Shown here: piece by piece, positions 4,295 to 15,626 of the stretch
How the letters are laid out: the number at the start of each line of letters is the position of its first letter
How positions within the stretch are numbered: position 1 is the first letter of the stretch
Assembly: GCF_000007345.1 (NCBI RefSeq)
Contig: NC_003552.1
Coordinates: forward strand, 1,550,001 to 1,614,000
Length of the DNA: 64,000 nucleotides
Direction: 5' to 3'
From: Methanosarcina acetivorans C2A
GTDB lineage: Archaea > Halobacteriota > Methanosarcinia > Methanosarcinales > Methanosarcinaceae
Notes under the pieces: generated by a model
The model's database searches: none
What the model was told of the DNA's origin: nothing
What the model saw: only the letters and a program-made list of their open reading frames with translations
Made by a program: the position numbers and the translations under genes

Positions 4295-4690
4295 TTGAGT
4301 GCAGGAAATATTTTTGTCTCGCAGGTAACGTTATCGCAGTCTCCGTCTGTAATTCCAATGATAGGAATTCCGAGCCGGTAGAGGATATTGCCGCTATGGT
4401 CTTGGTGTCGCTGTGGTGCCGTCTCCGACAGTGATCACAAGTTCGGCTCCGGAAGCCAGTTCGTAGGAATTTTCGGCAACGTTGTCTATAAGCATAACTT
4501 CTCCTGTCCCGAGCCTGCAATGAGAAATCGATTTCCGGGCGCTGGTATTTTCTTTTCGGGCAGCCGGGAATGAAGAATTGCTTCTTCGGATCTCACCGCT
4601 TTTTATACAGGCTCCGGCAAGGTCAACAGGGTCCATTTTTTCGTAATTGAGGGGCTTTTCGCGTCCATGTTCCTTTATAGCTCATAGGAA
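4295..4690 (-). pseudogene. Relic of the C-terminal region of the DUF2117 gene
   Basis: The minus strand encodes 'MDPVDLAGACIKSGEIRRS', 'NSYELASGAELVITVGDGTTA' in pieces, and a frameshifted tail. These match residues around 270-400 of the intact DUF2117 protein at 15627-16793. Indels near 4395 and the absence of both ends show it is a decayed partial copy. It lies between the HEPN toxin and the TadC-like gene, with no promoter of its own. Confidence 0.75.
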
Positions 4691-6658: not shown

Positions 6659-9493
6659 TTATTTTGTTTCTTGTAACTGTTTTTCCTTTTCCAGTAGTTT
6701 TTCCTTTTCCAGTAGTTTTTCCTGTGTCAGTTGTTTTATTTCTGCTGTTTGTTTTTCTTCTATCGGCCGTTTTTCCGGTACCGTTCGTCTTTCTTTAGCT
6801 AGTTGTTTCCCTGTTCCTTTTTTTCCGGTCCCTTTTTTCTCTGCTCCTGTGCATACCCTGGAAAAGTTTTCAAACCAGGTTTCCCACTGTCTGTAAAGCT
6901 CTTCAGTTTCATCCCTTGAAGCCGGTTCGTTGTCAGTTTCAAATCTTCCACTACCTGCTTTTATGGAATCCGAAAGCAGCCAGAACATATTGTTTGCCTC
7001 GCTTACGGCTTCGGCTTCAAGCAGGAATGGCCTGTGAATCCCTTCAGCTGCAATCCTTTCTTTTATCCTTGTCCGGAGTTCGATATTTTTCAGGGCGCTG
7101 TCAATGGAAATCCCCCATTTTCGGGCAATCTTCCCTATAAGTTCGGACTGCCCCTGCTCGAGCACCTCTCCTGCAAACAGACAGTCCTGAGCAGCACCAT
7201 AATACATGATATCTCTGAAGAGTTCCGATGGTTCGGGGTCTTCTATCGACTTGCCGGTTACTTCCGAAATCCGGCTCACCCGCTTCAACTTTTTCATACT
7301 CCCCCCGGGCCTGATTCCTGAACAGATTATCACTGCATCGGTCGCTTTGAAAGAAGCCGGAGGAACCCCAAGGGTGTGCACAACTCTCTCGTATATGTTT
7401 TCAACGGAAGAACCGTGGATGGTTCCTATAACGGAGTTTCCGGCATTTCCTACCTGCATGGCTTCGTAGAGCACTTTAACTTCCGGCCCCCTGACCTCCC
7501 CAAGCACCAGAGAAGAACTCCCGAGCCGTAGGGCAGCCCGGAGCGCGGTTTCAGGGCTCATTTCCGCCCCTGACTTCAGAACCGAAGAATGGGAACTCAT
7601 CCCCTGTACCTTCCAGCCCAGTTCTTGAAGCTGTTCTGTCGGGAGTTCGTGTGTGTCTTCAATTGTAAGGATTCTGTACTTCTGAGGGATCTCAAGCAGC
7701 ATTGCTGACATAAGCGAGGTCTTTCCGGCACCCACTTCTCCGGCAACAAGGACCGAAGCCTGCCCGTCCATAAGAAAACTCAAAAACCCGGCGGCAAAAG
7801 GAGAAATCGAACCTGTATTGATCAGTTTCGGCAGGGTCCAGGGTGTTAGGGAATGTTTTCGGAAAGCGTAAGCAAGCCCGTTTGCACTTAGCGGGTCTCC
7901 TATTACGGATACCCTTACCCCGAAAGCCTCAAGGTTGAGTTCAAGCACGGGGACAGCTTCTCCAAATGGCCTGCCGCTAATTGTCCTGAACCTTGAGACC
8001 AGGGCGTCAAGGTCGTCCTGCGAAAGAAAGACGTTGCTCGTACATTCCTCCCCTTCCATCACAACGTGCACGGGGTTTGTATCCGCAGGGGCATTGATGT
8101 ACACGTCCGTTATCCTCGCATCGGAAAGGAGGTCTTCTACGATCCCTAGCCCGTTCGTATACCTTGCAAGGAGGTCGGCATAGCTTTCAAGCTCATCCGG
8201 GCTGCAGGCTTTCCCGCTTTCGAGAAGTTCTTCCCCCAGCAAGTCTTTTGCTAGGCGTTTGAAGTACTCCCTGGCTCCGGTCGGGTCTGCAAAGGCGAGG
8301 TCCTTTGGTCTGTGCCGGATCATTTTTCTCCTTATTTTCTCAAGGAGCCTGAGTTCCTCCTGCCTGAGATTATACTCGGGAGGCCGGATCATGTAAAGTC
8401 TTTCAGGCCTGTCTGTGTAGCGGTAAATGGTGACCTCAAGGTTTCTTCCTTCTCTGCCGTTTATGTCATAACATTCGAGAAATTCGGTATTTTCAGGAGC
8501 TTCGGTGTAAATTCGCGAACTGGAAAAAGGCGGCCTGACATGAGATTTGATCCTGCTTTCGTAGGCGAAAAAATTATCATCTGGCTTTTTGTTCTCCTTT
8601 CTTTCGTTCTCTTGTCTCTGATTCTCTTTTTTTTCGTTCTCTTGTCTCTGATTCTCTTTTCTTTCGTTCTCTTGTCTCTGATTCTCTTTTCTTTCGTTCT
8701 CTTGTCTCTGATTCTCTTTTCTTTCGTTTTCCTGTCTATTGTTCTCCTGTTTTTTTCCAGCCCCGGAAAGTGAGAGCGAAACATTTCTGGATAAGGAAGC
8801 AGGAGTTATTTCTCCCGGAGTATTTTTTATAAGGGTCTCGATTTTCTTTCCTGATTTTCTGGTAACCTGGACTTCAGGAAAACAGGATATTTTTTCTTCA
8901 ATTTCATTCAGGATGCTATAGAAACACTCCGAGCATTCAAGACAAATAGAAGTTGTTTCCGGAACTCTGCCAGCCTTTTTTTTGTGAATAAGCTCTCCTA
9001 GCTCCAGCCGGGCTTTTAAGGGATCGGTTCCCACGGTTTCGGAGAGAGAAGCAATTATCTCTTTTCGCTCAAGGCTGCACGCCTTTTTTTCGGGACAGGC
9101 ACATGCTTCAGGCACAACTTCAATGCTCCTGTAAGCAGCAACGGTTCCTTTGAAACCTGCCAAATCATAAAGCAAGGAGAGGGATTTTCCTTCGTAGTCC
9201 CGTTCATAGAGCCTTGAGAGTACAAGACAATTGGCATGAACCTCCCTCCGGAGGATGCCGAAGATATTTTCCCTGCACTGCGGATCATTAAGGGAAGACC
9301 CGGCTTCGCATTCCCTGCAGTTGATTACAATTGTTTTCCGGTTTTTCGTCTGCTTTATCCTGTGCGGGCAGTTTTTTTCTTCCTCTTTATCTTTTACTTG
9401 AAGCAGGCACGGAATTAAACTCTTAACAGTATCCTGCAGGCTGCAGGCAGCGTCCTGAAGTTTTAGCATTATATTCAGAATAGAAACCCCCAT
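6659..9493 (-). CDS. TadA/VirB11-like secretion ATPase with Cys-rich N-terminal extension
   Basis: A 944-residue protein. The C-terminal half (about 400-800) is a GspE/TadA-type ATPase, with Walker A 'GEVGAGKTS', an Asp box 'ILTIEDTHELP' and 'SLVLGEVRGPE'. The N-terminal ~220 residues hold many paired cysteines (for example 'CPHRIKQ...NCRECEAGS' and 'CLECSECFYS'), suggesting a metal or Fe-S site. A charged repeat linker (KENQRQENER units) lies near 250-310. The C-terminus is a Lys/Glu-rich tail. It should power assembly of a surface filament with the TadC-like protein encoded next. Start at 9493 (AGGGGA just upstream) is uncertain; a Met eight codons in is possible. Confidence 0.82.
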   Translation of the reverse strand: MGVSILNIMLKLQDAACSLQDTVKSLIPCLLQVKDKEEEKNCPHRIKQTKNRKTIVINCRECEAGSSLNDPQCRENIFGILRREVHANCLVLSRLYERDYEGKSLSLLYDLAGFKGTVAAYRSIEVVPEACACPEKKACSLERKEIIASLSETVGTDPLKARLELGELIHKKKAGRVPETTSICLECSECFYSILNEIEEKISCFPEVQVTRKSGKKIETLIKNTPGEITPASLSRNVSLSLSGAGKKQENNRQENERKENQRQENERKENQRQENERKENQRQENEKKENQRQENERKENKKPDDNFFAYESRIKSHVRPPFSSSRIYTEAPENTEFLECYDINGREGRNLEVTIYRYTDRPERLYMIRPPEYNLRQEELRLLEKIRRKMIRHRPKDLAFADPTGAREYFKRLAKDLLGEELLESGKACSPDELESYADLLARYTNGLGIVEDLLSDARITDVYINAPADTNPVHVVMEGEECTSNVFLSQDDLDALVSRFRTISGRPFGEAVPVLELNLEAFGVRVSVIGDPLSANGLAYAFRKHSLTPWTLPKLINTGSISPFAAGFLSFLMDGQASVLVAGEVGAGKTSLMSAMLLEIPQKYRILTIEDTHELPTEQLQELGWKVQGMSSHSSVLKSGAEMSPETALRAALRLGSSSLVLGEVRGPEVKVLYEAMQVGNAGNSVIGTIHGSSVENIYERVVHTLGVPPASFKATDAVIICSGIRPGGSMKKLKRVSRISEVTGKSIEDPEPSELFRDIMYYGAAQDCLFAGEVLEQGQSELIGKIARKWGISIDSALKNIELRTRIKERIAAEGIHRPFLLEAEAVSEANNMFWLLSDSIKAGSGRFETDNEPASRDETEELYRQWETWFENFSRVCTGAEKKGTGKKGTGKQLAKERRTVPEKRPIEEKQTAEIKQLTQEKLLEKEKLLEKEKQLQETK
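8588..8755 (-). repeat. 33-bp coding repeats in the ATPase linker
   Basis: About five units of 33 bases (tctttcgttctcttgtctctgattct pattern on the plus strand) encode an 11-residue charged repeat, KENQRQENERK. The period is a multiple of three, so unit gain or loss keeps the reading frame. The plus-strand and alternate minus frames through it are shadows. Confidence 0.85.
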
Positions 9494-10990: not shown

Positions 10991-11215
10991 ATTAGGATGC
11001 CGAAGCTTTTGAGTATCAATCAGTACCTTCCGAAAATGAAGTCTAAAGTGTGATAAGCAGTTTTAACCATAAGCAGTTTATCAACTTCATTATCGGATCT
11101 CTTTATCCTATCACTATTCGTTGAATAATATATCGAGTATATATCGAGTATGGTTTGTTTATAGAAATCTGTTCTCAAGTCACGACAGGATATCGAGAAA
11201 TTAATAAGTCCGAGA

Positions 11216-12556
11216 TTACGTCATTATTGGAGTTATATTAATGTTGAACATTTTACTCCAATACTCATTTGCAAGACACCCTCCGGCACATATATCCGTA
11301 TATGGGCAATCGCAAGCGGGCTTTTTCCGTAATGAAATCATCGTATCGCTATGCCATAGGTCCATGATTTTCATATCGCGGATATTACCGATTGTGTGGT
11401 CCAGGTTACCGCAAGCTCGCACGTCTCCATCTGCACTGATATACATCAGAGATCTTCCTGCTGGACAGCCGTATATTGCTGCGTTATTCCCTATTTTGTA
11501 GTAGGGAGGAAAACCCCCGCTTTCAACTTTTAAGTTATTTATATTTTTATCGCTTAAGGTTTTAAGATTATTTGCCATTTCCGTTTTTTCCTCTTTTTTC
11601 CATTGACTGAGTTGGCTACCCCTTCCTTTAGAGAATAAAACGAGAAAACGAATTGATTCTACCTGCAAATCTCTTGCAAGCTGGATCATTGCCTCCATCT
11701 GGTGGGCATTTTCATTCATAACCGTACATGAAATGTTTAATGAAGAAACATTATGTTTCTTGAGCAATTCTATTGCTTTACATGCTTGGGAAAATGCTCC
11801 TGGACGGCCAACAATAGCGTCATGGGTTTCACTATCGGCTCCATGTATACTTACCTGCACCGAATCAAATAAAATCGCAATTTTTTTTGCCAATTCTTCA
11901 TTTATTAGCCAACCATTTGTACTTGTGGACAGAGTACGAATTCCTGACATTCTTGCAATAGTAGCTAATTCAATAAACGATGGATTACAGGTTGGCTCTC
12001 CTCCCATGAATGAGAATTCAGGAATTCCTATTTTACCAGCCTGCTGGATGACATCAACATAATTCTGAAGAGACATTTCACCTTCAGTTGTTGTCGGAGA
12101 AGCTTCCCTTGAGCAGTGTTTACAATGAAAATTGCATTTTTTTGTTATGTCAAGTTCAATTTTTAAAGGGATATGGCAAAACCATGTAGTCTGTGAACTC
12201 TCATAAAAATCAAAATATTTTTGACTTACTTCCGGGATCACTAATTTAGCAGTTGTGTTTTTTTCGTATCCTATTAAACCATAGCGATAATATTGTTCAA
12301 TCTCTTCTAAATCTTTCTCATTATGGCAGAGATCATTCACACTTTTTCCACGAATTAGCTGTAGAAGACCAATGGAATCCGTCAGGAATTGACCATTATT
12401 ATTCTCAACAATAAACCCTGCATTCATAGGATAAACGAATAAATCTTCTCTTAAATAGAGCGGGGCTTCTTTATCAGATATTACTTTTCTTTCATACGTG
12501 TATGAAATTTCAGGTATCGAACAGGGAAGATATTGTTCATTTTTGAATATAATCAT
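11216..12556 (-). CDS. Radical SAM/SPASM peptide-modifying enzyme
   Basis: A 446-residue protein. Residues 1-100 resemble a PqqD-like peptide-recognition region. The radical SAM core starts near 135 with the C-x3-C-x2-C cluster motif (CNFHCKHC), followed by 'FMGGEPTCNP'. A C-terminal SPASM region holds further cysteines ('CPAGRS', 'RACGNLD', 'CDCPYTDICAGGCLA') for auxiliary Fe-S clusters. This layout (PqqE, AlbA and anSME relatives) is used to modify ribosomal peptides or proteins. Upstream on the same strand, 288 bases away, is a Cys-rich 114-residue protein that is the obvious candidate substrate or partner. No exporter or protease is nearby. Confidence 0.82.
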   Translation of the reverse strand: MIIFKNEQYLPCSIPEISYTYERKVISDKEAPLYLREDLFVYPMNAGFIVENNNGQFLTDSIGLLQLIRGKSVNDLCHNEKDLEEIEQYYRYGLIGYEKNTTAKLVIPEVSQKYFDFYESSQTTWFCHIPLKIELDITKKCNFHCKHCSREASPTTTEGEMSLQNYVDVIQQAGKIGIPEFSFMGGEPTCNPSFIELATIARMSGIRTLSTSTNGWLINEELAKKIAILFDSVQVSIHGADSETHDAIVGRPGAFSQACKAIELLKKHNVSSLNISCTVMNENAHQMEAMIQLARDLQVESIRFLVLFSKGRGSQLSQWKKEEKTEMANNLKTLSDKNINNLKVESGGFPPYYKIGNNAAIYGCPAGRSLMYISADGDVRACGNLDHTIGNIRDMKIMDLWHSDTMISLRKKPACDCPYTDICAGGCLANEYWSKMFNINITPIMT

Positions 12557-12844
12557 GATTTATCCCACTTCGCATAGCTATGTTTTTATCGAAAAGAAAA
12601 TTAACAAATCTGGCTCTTTGCTGTTTTGAGTGGGATGAAAATAATTCCCCGGTTGAAAAGTGACCATCCAGAATAGACAAACATCCATCTTGGATGTCAT
12701 TTTCCAAACAAATGCATTTAATTATTAAATGTACTCAAACATTCTAAGTATTGCACTCATATTTAGAAAATAATTATAATTTTAGAAAACGATTGCAATT
12801 ACCCCACTTAGAGAGCCAAAAAGTTATATCGCGAACAACACCAT
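12557..12844. other. Spacer upstream of the radical SAM gene
   Basis: The spacer holds a small inverted repeat (acatcca-tct-tggatgt, 12681-12697) and a possible 40-codon minus-strand ORF (12578-12700). That ORF has no convincing SD and one cysteine. I do not call it as a gene, but it is the only other short peptide candidate next to the enzyme. Confidence 0.35.
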
Positions 12845-13189
12845 TCACTGTTCTAAATTCACGCCTTTTTCTTTAAAGTATTTTACAACAGACTTTTTAT
12901 TTTCTACTATATATTCTTTGATGAGTTCCTGATGATCTCTAATATTTATTGAGAAGCTATCACCAGCGCATCCCCATAATTCAGGCATTTCTAGTCCAGG
13001 CATTTCGGCCGGGCATTTTCCTTCTCTGCAACACCCTTTATCCTGGCAGCATCCCTGGTCCTTAACGCATCCGCAGTCATTGCCTGTCTCAATCAATATA
13101 TCCAAGGCATCGTCGATTTGTTTTCTGGCCTTTACTTTTGTAGACGATGATACGCCCTCAACAACTTTTCCAACAACTTTTCCCGGCAT
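12845..13189 (-). CDS. Cys-rich small protein, candidate radical-SAM substrate
   Basis: A 114-residue protein of unrecognised family. A leader-like N-terminus (1-38) is Lys/Val-rich. A central cluster holds eight cysteines in 'CGC...CC...CC...C' spacing between 39 and 76, ending with 'ELWGCAGDS'. A helical Lys/Glu-rich C-terminus follows. It is co-directional with and upstream of the radical SAM/SPASM gene. The Cys knot-like core could be modified (thioether crosslinks) or bind metal; both are inference. A TATA-like stretch lies directly before the ATG and no SD is seen, so the start is uncertain. No downstream Met allows the Cys core to be kept. Confidence 0.6.
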   Translation of the reverse strand: MPGKVVGKVVEGVSSSTKVKARKQIDDALDILIETGNDCGCVKDQGCCQDKGCCREGKCPAEMPGLEMPELWGCAGDSFSINIRDHQELIKEYIVENKKSVVKYFKEKGVNLEQ

Positions 13190-13239
13190 ATATAAATATA
13201 GGTATTATTGATACTTAAAATTTTGTTTCATGTTCGTAA

Positions 13240-13750
13240 GTGATTGACATTTTATATGTCTGTGAATTCGGTTTAGGAAATTTCTGTATATGCGGTTGGC
13301 ATGAAAATGACTATGAATCTGCAGCAATGTGGAAACTATATTCGGATCTTGAAAACGGAATTGCCATCCAATCAACTTTCAAGAATTTAAAAGAATGCTT
13401 TTTTGAAGATGAGCCTGATGTTGTGATCGGGAAGGTAGAGTATCTTAATTATAACGAGGATTCAATACCTTGGGGAAATAAATTATACATATACAAGCCT
13501 TTCGTGTACAAAAGACGAAGTTTTGAATACGAACATGAAATTCGGGCCATCGTTTTTGTTCGTAATGAAGAAAAACGAAATAACAAATGGAATTTACGTT
13601 CCGGTTTCTCTAGATATATTAATTGAAAAAATATTTGTTTCTCCTAAGGCACCTAAATGGTTTTTAGACTTGGTGAGATCAATCTCAATAAAATACGGAC
13701 TGGATAAAGAAGTAATTCAATCGGATCTATATAATGGACCATTATATTGA
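13240..13750 (+). pseudogene. DUF2971-like gene, truncated and frameshifted
   Basis: Frame 1 (13240-~13590) reads 'GWHENDYESAAMWKLYSD' and 'RRSFEYEHEIRAIVF', features of DUF2971 proteins. The sequence then continues in another frame ('GIYVPVSLDILIEKIFVSP') to 13750. One frameshift near 13565-13590, in the A-rich 'gaagaaaaacgaaa', joins the two. The N-terminus is short for the family and starts at a GTG, so 5' truncation is likely too. It is probably a dead gene. Confidence 0.65.
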
Positions 13751-13794
13751 TAATTTCTAATTCTGTGTCTCTTTGATTTTTTCTTGGTTTAGGG

Positions 13795-14010
13795 ATATTT
13801 GTTGTCAGACCTCTCTCCTTCGTCGAGCGTGGCAAGAACGACATAAAACAGCGAATGACGTTTTATGGGTCAGAAATATCTAGAATTTAGTCCTCTTGAG
13901 CGCAGTGAAAAGGACCTCGTGCTGTTGCACTTGCAGTGCAACTCCCAGGAAATCTCCGATTTCCTGTGATCCCGAAGCGAAACTCGGGCGGGATAGATTT
14001 TAATTGAAAA
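13795..14010 (+). repeat. Composite dispersed repeat, copy 3
   Basis: The stretch contains the A-module core 'cctctctccttcgtcgagcg' and a following B-like module ('cttgagcgcagtgaaaagga'). It then runs into the leader shared with the first MNT gene. Confidence 0.55.
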
Positions 14011-14026
14011 AAACGAGATATATCAC

Positions 14027-14323
14027 ATGCACACTGTGGGAGAAAGGGAAGATCTGTTTCGCAAAATTTCTTCCTTTTTAAAACAATATGGGGCAAGTAA
14101 AGTATCTGTTTTTGGGTCTTACGTTAGGGGAGAAGAGAAACCAAAAAGCGACATTGCCATCCTGGTTGAGTTTGCCGAACGGAAAAGCCTGCTCACTCTG
14201 GTGAATATAGAACTGGAGCTTTCTGACTACCTGGGTATAAAAGTCGACTTACTTACTGAGAAATCGATAAGTCCTTACCTGATTGATGAAATTAAAAAAG
14301 AAGCCAGAGTGATCTCTGAATGA
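14027..14323 (+). CDS. Orphan MNT antitoxin paralogue with altered active site
   Basis: A 98-residue near-identical copy of the MntA-type protein at 3631, with its leader also duplicated. The catalytic motif reads 'SDIAILVEF' where the first copy has 'SDIDVLVEF', so the second aspartate of D-x-D is Ala. That residue holds the catalytic metal in nucleotidyltransferases, so activity is probably lost. The HEPN gene that should follow is missing: identity stops just after the shared 'TGAATGA', leaving a 14-codon remnant. It may be a decaying antitoxin or may still bind the HEPN toxin. Confidence 0.75.
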   Translation: MHTVGEREDLFRKISSFLKQYGASKVSVFGSYVRGEEKPKSDIAILVEFAERKSLLTLVNIELELSDYLGIKVDLLTEKSISPYLIDEIKKEARVISE

Positions 14324-14351
14324 ACAAATATAAAAATTGCTCACATGCTAC

Positions 14352-14410
14352 ATATAATCAATAGCTTTTGAATAGCTTTTGAATAGCTTTTGAATAGCTT
14401 CTGAATGGCC
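14352..14410 (+). repeat. 11-bp tandem repeat (aatagcttttg)
   Basis: Four to five units of 11 bases lie 30 bases after the orphan MNT stop. The last unit is degenerate (cttctgaatgg). No function is visible. Confidence 0.8.
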
Positions 14411-14460
14411 CCCAATCAGAAATTGAGCACGTAAATTACCTGCTGACCGATTTTCCCATT

Positions 14461-15479
14461 TTATTTCAGGAGTTTTTTGTCAAGCATATCCTGGATGTCA
14501 CGATTTGCAGTGGACTGACTGACATCACATATTTCCTGATACTCATTGCTTGTGATCTTACCATTTTCTTTTAAATATTCAATCGCCTTTACCTGCCGGC
14601 TGCTCAACCCTATCTGTCCGAATTTTTCTTTCATCGAACGGTCGCTGCTCAGCTTCAGGACCGTTTTTTCGACTCTTGAGATTTCCACGGCAATGCCGAA
14701 AAGGAAATATTCGAACCATTCGGTCAAATCTCTGTCCCCGGCATCCGCACTTGAAAGGGCGGAGTAATAAGAGGGCCGGTCTTTGTTGTAGTGCTCCTCA
14801 AGAGCGAAAAACCGCTTGGTATCAAAGCCTCTCTTTGTCAGGATCAGGCTGGCAAGAGCCCTCGCGGTTCTCCCGTTTCCGTCAACGAAGGGGTGGATTC
14901 TGGCAAGTTCCTGATGAGCAACTCCTGCCTACACGGCGGGCATGAGGTCAAGGGCATCTTCGCTGTTAAGCCACTCGACAAGGGCTTTTGCCAGGGCAGG
15001 GACTTCAGCAGGTCCCGGAGGGTATAGGTGACTTTCCAGGTTTTCGGGTCTCCGACAACGACCTGCACTTTCCGGTAGTTGCCGGCAGAATCATCAGGAA
15101 GGATATTTTTTGCCGTGAGCCTGTGGATTTCCAGGAGAAACTCTTCGGTTATGAGTCCGTTTTCAGGTAAGGAATCGATATATTTCAGTACATCCACATA
15201 ATTCTGGACTTCCTTTTTGTTCTTTTCGTGGGCAAGGACCTCTTTTCCCTCTATAATAAGCTCAACTTCCTCAAGAGTCAGGGGGTTTCCCTCGATACTT
15301 GTCGTGTGGTGGGTCTGCTTTATAAGGGCTTCTCGCTGGAGCTGTTTTTCCCATGCCGGAATCAGAGGGCTGTTTATGATGACTTCCCTGGCAGCCTGGA
15401 TCCTTGCAAGCAGGCGCATGATTTTGTTTGTGTACTTGAAATTTGGCTGAAACATCCGTTTATCCGCCTTTCCATCCAT
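14461..15479 (-). pseudogene. Fic-family protein gene, frameshift plus in-frame TAG
   Basis: The 5' part (15479 down to ~15030) encodes a Fic N-terminal region with the autoinhibitory 'TTSIEGNP' motif. A single-base change near 15028 shifts frame, after which the expected 'PPGPAEVPALAKALVEWLN' continues. The same frame carries a TAG at 14931-14929 inside 'MPAV*AGVAHQ', then the intact Fic core 'IHPFVDGNGRT' and a C-terminal winged-helix region ending at 14461. Fic proteins transfer AMP to target hydroxyls and are often toxins or regulators. With a frameshift and a stop it is probably dead. The start at 15479 (ATG) is preferred to a GTG at 15533. Confidence 0.75.
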
Positions 15480-15626
15480 TATTAAAAGAGTTACTCCTTT
15501 TGTTATTAACTTAGCAGGAATTTGTTTCCGCACTCATTGCGGACATTTCCATAAAATTGCTGCAAAAGACGAAACTGCATTCAGTACCCGGGAATCATAA
15601 GTTCCATTTCAAGGGAGTCTGCTATG

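Follow-up and report, generated by a model that had tools for sequence, protein, structure and literature searches.

A putative radical SAM/SPASM modification system for a cysteine-rich protein on a two-gene cassette of Methanosarcina

Introduction

The sporulation killing factor sactisynthase SkfB (Twitch type, PDB 6EFN) carries its auxiliary cysteines in the arrangement C333-x17-C351-x33-C385-x-C387, where the CXC pair ligates the Aux I cluster and one site is left open (PMC6231123). The full SPASM motif reads CX9-15GX4C-gap-CX2CX5CX3C-gap-C (PMC6231123), and its terminal cysteine is expected in enzymes of this type (PMC5682303, PMC6231123). Protein-sized substrates are also known. QhpD, from the maturation of quinohemoprotein amine dehydrogenase, acts in the cytoplasm on QhpC, a mostly coil, Cys-containing polypeptide of protein size (PMC7876137), and the bufferins are large Cys-rich proteins that undergo MNIO modification (PMC12452194). 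Here we describe a locus of Methanosarcina in which a radical SAM/SPASM enzyme adjoins a Cys-rich protein that may be its substrate.

Results

The locus

The window, by which we mean the whole 64,000-nucleotide stretch of DNA that was analysed, covers bases 1,550,001-1,614,000 of a single-contig Methanosarcina genome of 5,751,492 bases. The original prediction had placed in it a SPASM enzyme beside a 114-residue protein with eight cysteines; both ORFs lie where it had put them, and the eight cysteines and the nature of the enzyme are confirmed. On the minus strand, the Cys-protein ORF is upstream and the 446-aa enzyme ORF follows. The features, in window coordinates, are:

11160..13255, minus strand: two-gene cassette, all DNA in common with two other carriers (blastn limits)
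12845..13189, minus strand: Cys-rich 114-aa protein, putative substrate (ORF, homologue alignment, dN/dS)
13160..13183, minus strand: 12-bp tandem duplication in the N-terminus (GKVVGKVV), in this copy only (DNA comparison of copies)
12968..13075, minus strand: Cys core, residues 39-74 (three-copy alignment)
12848..12946, minus strand: C-terminal residues 82-114, conserved and predicted to be helical (alignment and low-confidence model)
12612..12817, minus strand: degraded dispersed inverted-repeat (MITE-like) element between the genes (ends judged visually by comparison with other copies)
12557..12611, minus strand: rest of the enzyme-gene leader (comparison of copies)
11216..12556, minus strand: 446-aa radical SAM/SPASM enzyme (ORF, PF04055 and PF13186)
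12269..12451, minus strand: residues 36-96 of the enzyme, an N-terminal domain that may fold like an RRE (low-confidence model; not seen by sequence)
12113..12136, minus strand: CX3CX2C radical SAM cluster motif, C141-C148 (sequence)
11276..11467, minus strand: SPASM/Twitch cysteines, C364 to C427 (sequence, compared with PMC6231123)

Beside the cassette, positions 13240-15533 hold a short ORF of the DUF2971 family, a nucleotidyltransferase of MNT type and an ORF of Fic-like character with resemblance to candidate defence families, and parts of this stretch recur in three other genomes (G009, G010, G022). Positions 4304-4683 resemble part of a DUF2117 gene, with ~67-78% identity to the copies of other species, and are apparently a partial duplicate.

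The Cys-rich protein

The eight cysteines (residues 39, 41, 47, 48, 53, 54, 59 and 74) are invariant in an alignment of the window's copy with its two homologues, from UBA8098 (90% identical) and ERenArc_MAG2 (80% identical), the three proteins ranging in length from 112 to 114 aa. Residues 44-64 are invariant throughout (n = 3 copies), and Asp, Lys, Trp and Glu are likewise conserved in the core; a 3-residue insertion brings a ninth cysteine to the ERenArc_MAG2 protein. For the Cys gene, dN/dS is ~0.06/0.38 against UBA8098 and ~0.11/0.93 against ERenArc_MAG2, and both cassette genes are under purifying selection. Its two homologues, the invariance of all eight cysteines and these dN/dS values establish the 114-aa ORF as a genuine gene.

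The protein had been thought to fit no known family, and this is borne out by searches of Pfam, NCBIfam, PHROG and PADLOC, none of which gave a family match, and of the PDB, which gave no sequence match above chance. Three weak phylum-level matches (E 0.001-0.008) were considered as distant homologues and taken as chance, the two that were examined having no SPASM neighbour in the surrounding DNA available for them. On these searches the putative substrate family is new.

The Lys/Val-rich N-terminus, which the original prediction had read as leader-like, owes part of its sequence to a tandem duplication of 12 bp in frame (GGAAAAGTTGTT, twice) that neither homologue has, a detail in which that reading needs correcting. 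The structural model has a helix at residues 15-34 and helices at 87-107, with a Cys loop of no confident structure (pLDDT 52, three sequences).

The enzyme

The enzyme has the radical SAM motif CX3CX2C (C141/145/148) and matches PF04055 (1.3e-25; 90.9 bits against a cut-off of 29.5) as well as the SPASM family PF13186 (1.9e-10; 41.3 bits against 21.5); the SPASM domain is not confined to enzymes with peptide substrates. Its auxiliary cysteines are spaced C364-x17-C382-x32-C415-x-C417-x5-C423-x3-C427, with none later, and so depart from the full seven-Cys motif in having CXC for CX2C and in missing the terminal cysteine after C427. The second auxiliary cluster may therefore be incomplete or absent, the cluster content of the enzyme being what we infer from motifs.

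By sequence, SkfB is the closest solved relative (7e-16). The best NCBIfam bit scores are to AhbD (TIGR04545, 144.9) and NirJ2 (132), both far under their 500-bit cut-offs; the SkfB family, TIGR04403, gives 73.2 bits against a curated cut-off of 300, and every curated peptide-maturase cut-off lies far above the enzyme's scores. Judged by curated cut-offs, the pair is outside the SkfB, AhbD and methano_modCys families. A viperin-like defence gene was also considered and rejected, the PADLOC matches spanning the radical SAM core only.

The enzyme had further been credited with a PqqD-like N-terminus, a claim that the sequence comparisons do not uphold. The N-terminal domain has no match to PF05402 (PqqD) at E ≤ 10, nor is there one at this locus, and hhalign against Methanosarcina PqqD domains gave a probability of 1.8%, from a three-sequence profile that has little power. 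The AF2 model, of low confidence (mean pLDDT 53, residues 1-128 below 50), has in this region strands at 39-44 and 47-52, then helices at 61-69, 73-76 and 80-91, which is the order of an RRE. In Foldseek, SkfB, SuiB and CteB were among the first matches of this model, over 386-450 columns and with TM-scores of only about 0.5, the level to be expected when the model is weak. For SuiB and CteB the alignments extend over 404-450 columns, against 327-345 for the RRE-less PqqE and anSME, and must therefore include the N-terminus.

Other SPASM enzymes and their neighbours were noted elsewhere. In one genome (G005; L080, 793-2754) a 426-aa SPASM enzyme that matches PqqD weakly has immediately upstream of it another large Cys-rich protein, of 203 aa, which contains many C-P pairs and fits no family; the two make up a further pair built on the same plan, apparently unrelated to the one described here. 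In two others (G010, G025; L075, 489-2181, and L077, 96-3044) a 448-aa PqqD-rSAM-SPASM enzyme lies between an upstream subtilisin-like protein with a Cys-rich tail and a downstream protein of 105-106 aa without an NCBIfam family. A further genome (G026; L076, 363-3101) has two SPASM enzymes, of 449 and 372 aa, clustered with a stand-alone PqqD-like protein of 87 aa.

Distribution and co-occurrence

The Cys protein is present in three of 31 Methanosarcina genomes, and the same three carry, directly downstream of the Cys gene, closely related enzyme orthologues (86-100% identity), so that the pair is adjacent and in the same order in every carrier. Neither gene occurs in the remaining 28, where the best enzyme match is a ~30% AhbD/NirJ-like or other SPASM protein. 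Were the genomes independent, both genes would coincide in three of 31 with a probability of 1 in 4495; their independence is, however, incomplete. When 186 Methanosarcinales genomes were searched with a profile, the Cys protein turned up in the same three and in none of the other 183, and in a 393-genome sample of the phylum either gene was found only in the window's genome, barring the weak matches judged chance. The distribution, at three genomes, is far narrower than Methanosarcinales-wide, and the Cys protein is not widespread without the enzyme, which is the finding that the original prediction had said would refute it; in these genomes it was not refuted. As in a RiPP precursor/maturase pair, the candidate precursor gene is adjacent to the enzyme gene and co-inherited with it. 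Strict co-occurrence, conserved order and joint transfer thus support the original prediction in treating the two genes as a functional pair.

A search by guessed locus tags found no paper on these genes. The ERenArc_MAG2 enzyme gene (L005, about 7250-7295) has a run of seven A, against eight in the other two copies, and this 1-base deletion disrupts the reading frame; it may be a sequencing error, or may reflect decay or phase variation.

An apparently mobile two-gene unit

The DNA common to the carriers, as delimited by blastn, extends over 11192-13255 with UBA8098 (88.9%) and 11160-13232 with ERenArc_MAG2 (84.1%), which is to say the two genes and about 50 bp on each side only. In UBA8098 the pair lies at the same locus as in the window, in the order TadA-like ATPase, pair, DUF2117, UPF0173, CO dehydrogenase. 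In ERenArc_MAG2 it lies at a different one, ~0.5 Mb from UPF0173, where its neighbours on either side are a secreted protein rich in repeats and a PKD protein; the secreted-looking one (L066, 9142-9891) has many CEETTP(A/T)E(E/D)V repeats. Two genomes (G008, G029) have neither the pair nor its neighbours in the interval from TadA to DUF2117, and three (G009, G010, G022) have only the nucleotidyltransferase/Fic-type gene stretch in common with the window locus, and no pair.

Between the window and UBA8098, dS is 0.38 for the Cys gene and 0.26 for the enzyme, against 1.22 for DUF2117, 1.36 for UPF0173, 1.12 for CO dehydrogenase and 0.83 (partial) for TadA. The values for ERenArc_MAG2 are 0.95 (Cys gene), 0.44 (enzyme) and 1.73 (UPF0173), where the case is weaker because the dS of the Cys gene is nearer background. 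Cassette dS is thus ~2-5 times below that of neighbouring genes. Since the shared DNA is the pair only, the two loci are unrelated and dS is lower, the pair appears mobile as a cassette, and the simplest reading is that it spread horizontally as one two-gene unit. No third gene moves with it in the DNA shared by the three carriers, and the unit therefore has no dedicated protease, exporter or immunity gene, in keeping with the original prediction, which had seen no exporter or peptidase. Viral or plasmid carriage of the pair was searched for and gave no match.

The spacer

The ~104-nt leader before the enzyme start is 94-95% conserved, more than the genes themselves, which fits recent transfer. 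The upstream half of it has matches at numerous sites in every one of the 31 Methanosarcina genomes, up to 29 in one. Twelve of these copies were read (L047-L058), and GGCTCTTCGCTGTTTTGAGTGGGT and ACCCACTCAAAACAGCGAAGAGCC form the inverted ends of the element, with a spacing of roughly 150-200 bp; by this comparison the upstream half of the leader is the end of a dispersed MITE-like (miniature transposon-like) element of Methanosarcina. The degraded copy spans about 12612-12817, which implies an ancestral spacer of ~80-90 bp, and its insertion is, on the evidence of the three cassette copies, older than their spread. Two other candidates in the leader were rejected. A regulatory RNA, with a possible AUCCCAC/GUGGGAU pairing, folds no better than shuffles and has neither an Rfam match nor compensatory changes, and the frame of a small ORF is not kept among the three copies.

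Discussion

Our best reading is that the pair is a lineage-restricted addition to the RRE-SPASM kind of maturase and substrate. The original prediction of a RiPP-like pair thus stands in its functional pairing, the RiPP-maturase build and the new putative substrate family, and is not supported in the PqqD-like N-terminus, as judged by sequence. That the Cys protein is the substrate of the adjoining enzyme is, in our view, very probable, and RRE-type recognition between them is reasonably likely; thioether formation at cysteine, rather than another radical modification, is an even call. As a whole, a dedicated post-translational modification system on a small mobile cassette is the account that we consider fairly probable.

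In such a mechanism the Cys protein would be bound through one of its two helical ends, probably by the N-terminal domain of the enzyme. SAM would be cleaved at the CX3CX2C cluster and hydrogen abstracted from residues in the central Cys-rich loop, after which Cys thiolates could attack the resulting carbon centre while the auxiliary cluster takes the electron. The outcome would be at least one thioether cross-link of a sactionine-like or QhpD-like kind. Because the unit has no exporter or protease, the product would probably remain in the cytoplasm, where we would guess at a metal-binding or redox role.

The enzyme might instead act on the Cys protein by another radical reaction, such as a C-C or C-O cross-link, epimerisation or decarboxylation, leaving the cysteines as metal ligands or for disulfides. 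SPASM enzymes of this build vary in chemistry, SuiB, the second-ranked structure match, forming a carbon-carbon link (PMC6231123), and Asp, Lys, Trp and Glu are conserved in the core as well; the density and invariance of the cysteines, however, and an auxiliary motif resembling that of a thioether-forming enzyme make this unlikely. Less likely still is a metallothionein-like or Fe-S nature of the Cys protein, which would then travel with the enzyme by chance or in a shared pathway, the enzyme having another target. Its CC/CXC clusters would suit metal binding and the lack of a family match leaves its function open, but the shared DNA holds these two genes only, at two loci, and they never occur singly in 31 genomes. 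Finally, a diverged heme-pathway enzyme (AhbD/NirJ-like) rather than a peptide maturase, for which the top NCBIfam scores speak (145 and 132 bits), is very improbable in view of the distance from the 500-bit cut-offs, the separate AhbD/NirJ-like homologues in the Methanosarcina genomes searched, the extra 128-aa N-terminal region and the joint transfer with the Cys gene.

If the preferred account of a dedicated modification pair is true, it would add an example from archaea to a type of protein maturation described mostly in bacteria, one whose substrate is unusually large and Cys-dense, and the incomplete auxiliary-cluster motif would inform how such enzymes handle Cys substrates. A minimal two-gene cassette is directly testable, and M. 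acetivorans appears genetically tractable. Put more speculatively, and with considerable doubt, the pair could define a new archaeal class of modified protein, in which a dedicated SkfB-like SPASM enzyme cross-links the central CC-repeat loop of a 112-114-aa polypeptide between a helical leader and follower, inside the cell and without leader removal or export, and which was passed between methanogens on a mobile unit of just two genes.

Among known systems, the bufferins differ in their MNIO and DUF2063-RRE enzymes, Sec signal peptide and copper role. TIGR04165 (methano_modCys) is, by its NCBIfam name, a Cys-rich putative modification target of methanogens, but no match to it is listed at the locus in the three carriers (cut-off 60 bits) and none exceeds the cut-off in the 31 genomes. 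QhpD and QhpC share with the pair a dedicated radical SAM enzyme and a protein-sized substrate, a functional analogy only, with no sequence link shown, and the qhp operon has in addition a protease, an exporter, a flavoprotein and partner subunits. The RRE-rSAM-SPASM RiPP maturases CteB and SuiB match the three-domain build over 404-450 columns of the low-confidence model, but at 15-21% identity and with unrelated substrates, and the terminal SPASM cysteine is missing here. SkfB and SkfA differ in that SkfA is a 55-mer, against 112-114 aa here, in that the cassette is without export or immunity genes, and in the extra C423 and C427 of our enzyme; SkfB is nonetheless the top match both by sequence and in Foldseek, and the auxiliary spacing, C-x17-C-x32-C-x-C here and C-x17-C-x33-C-x-C in SkfB, is almost the same.
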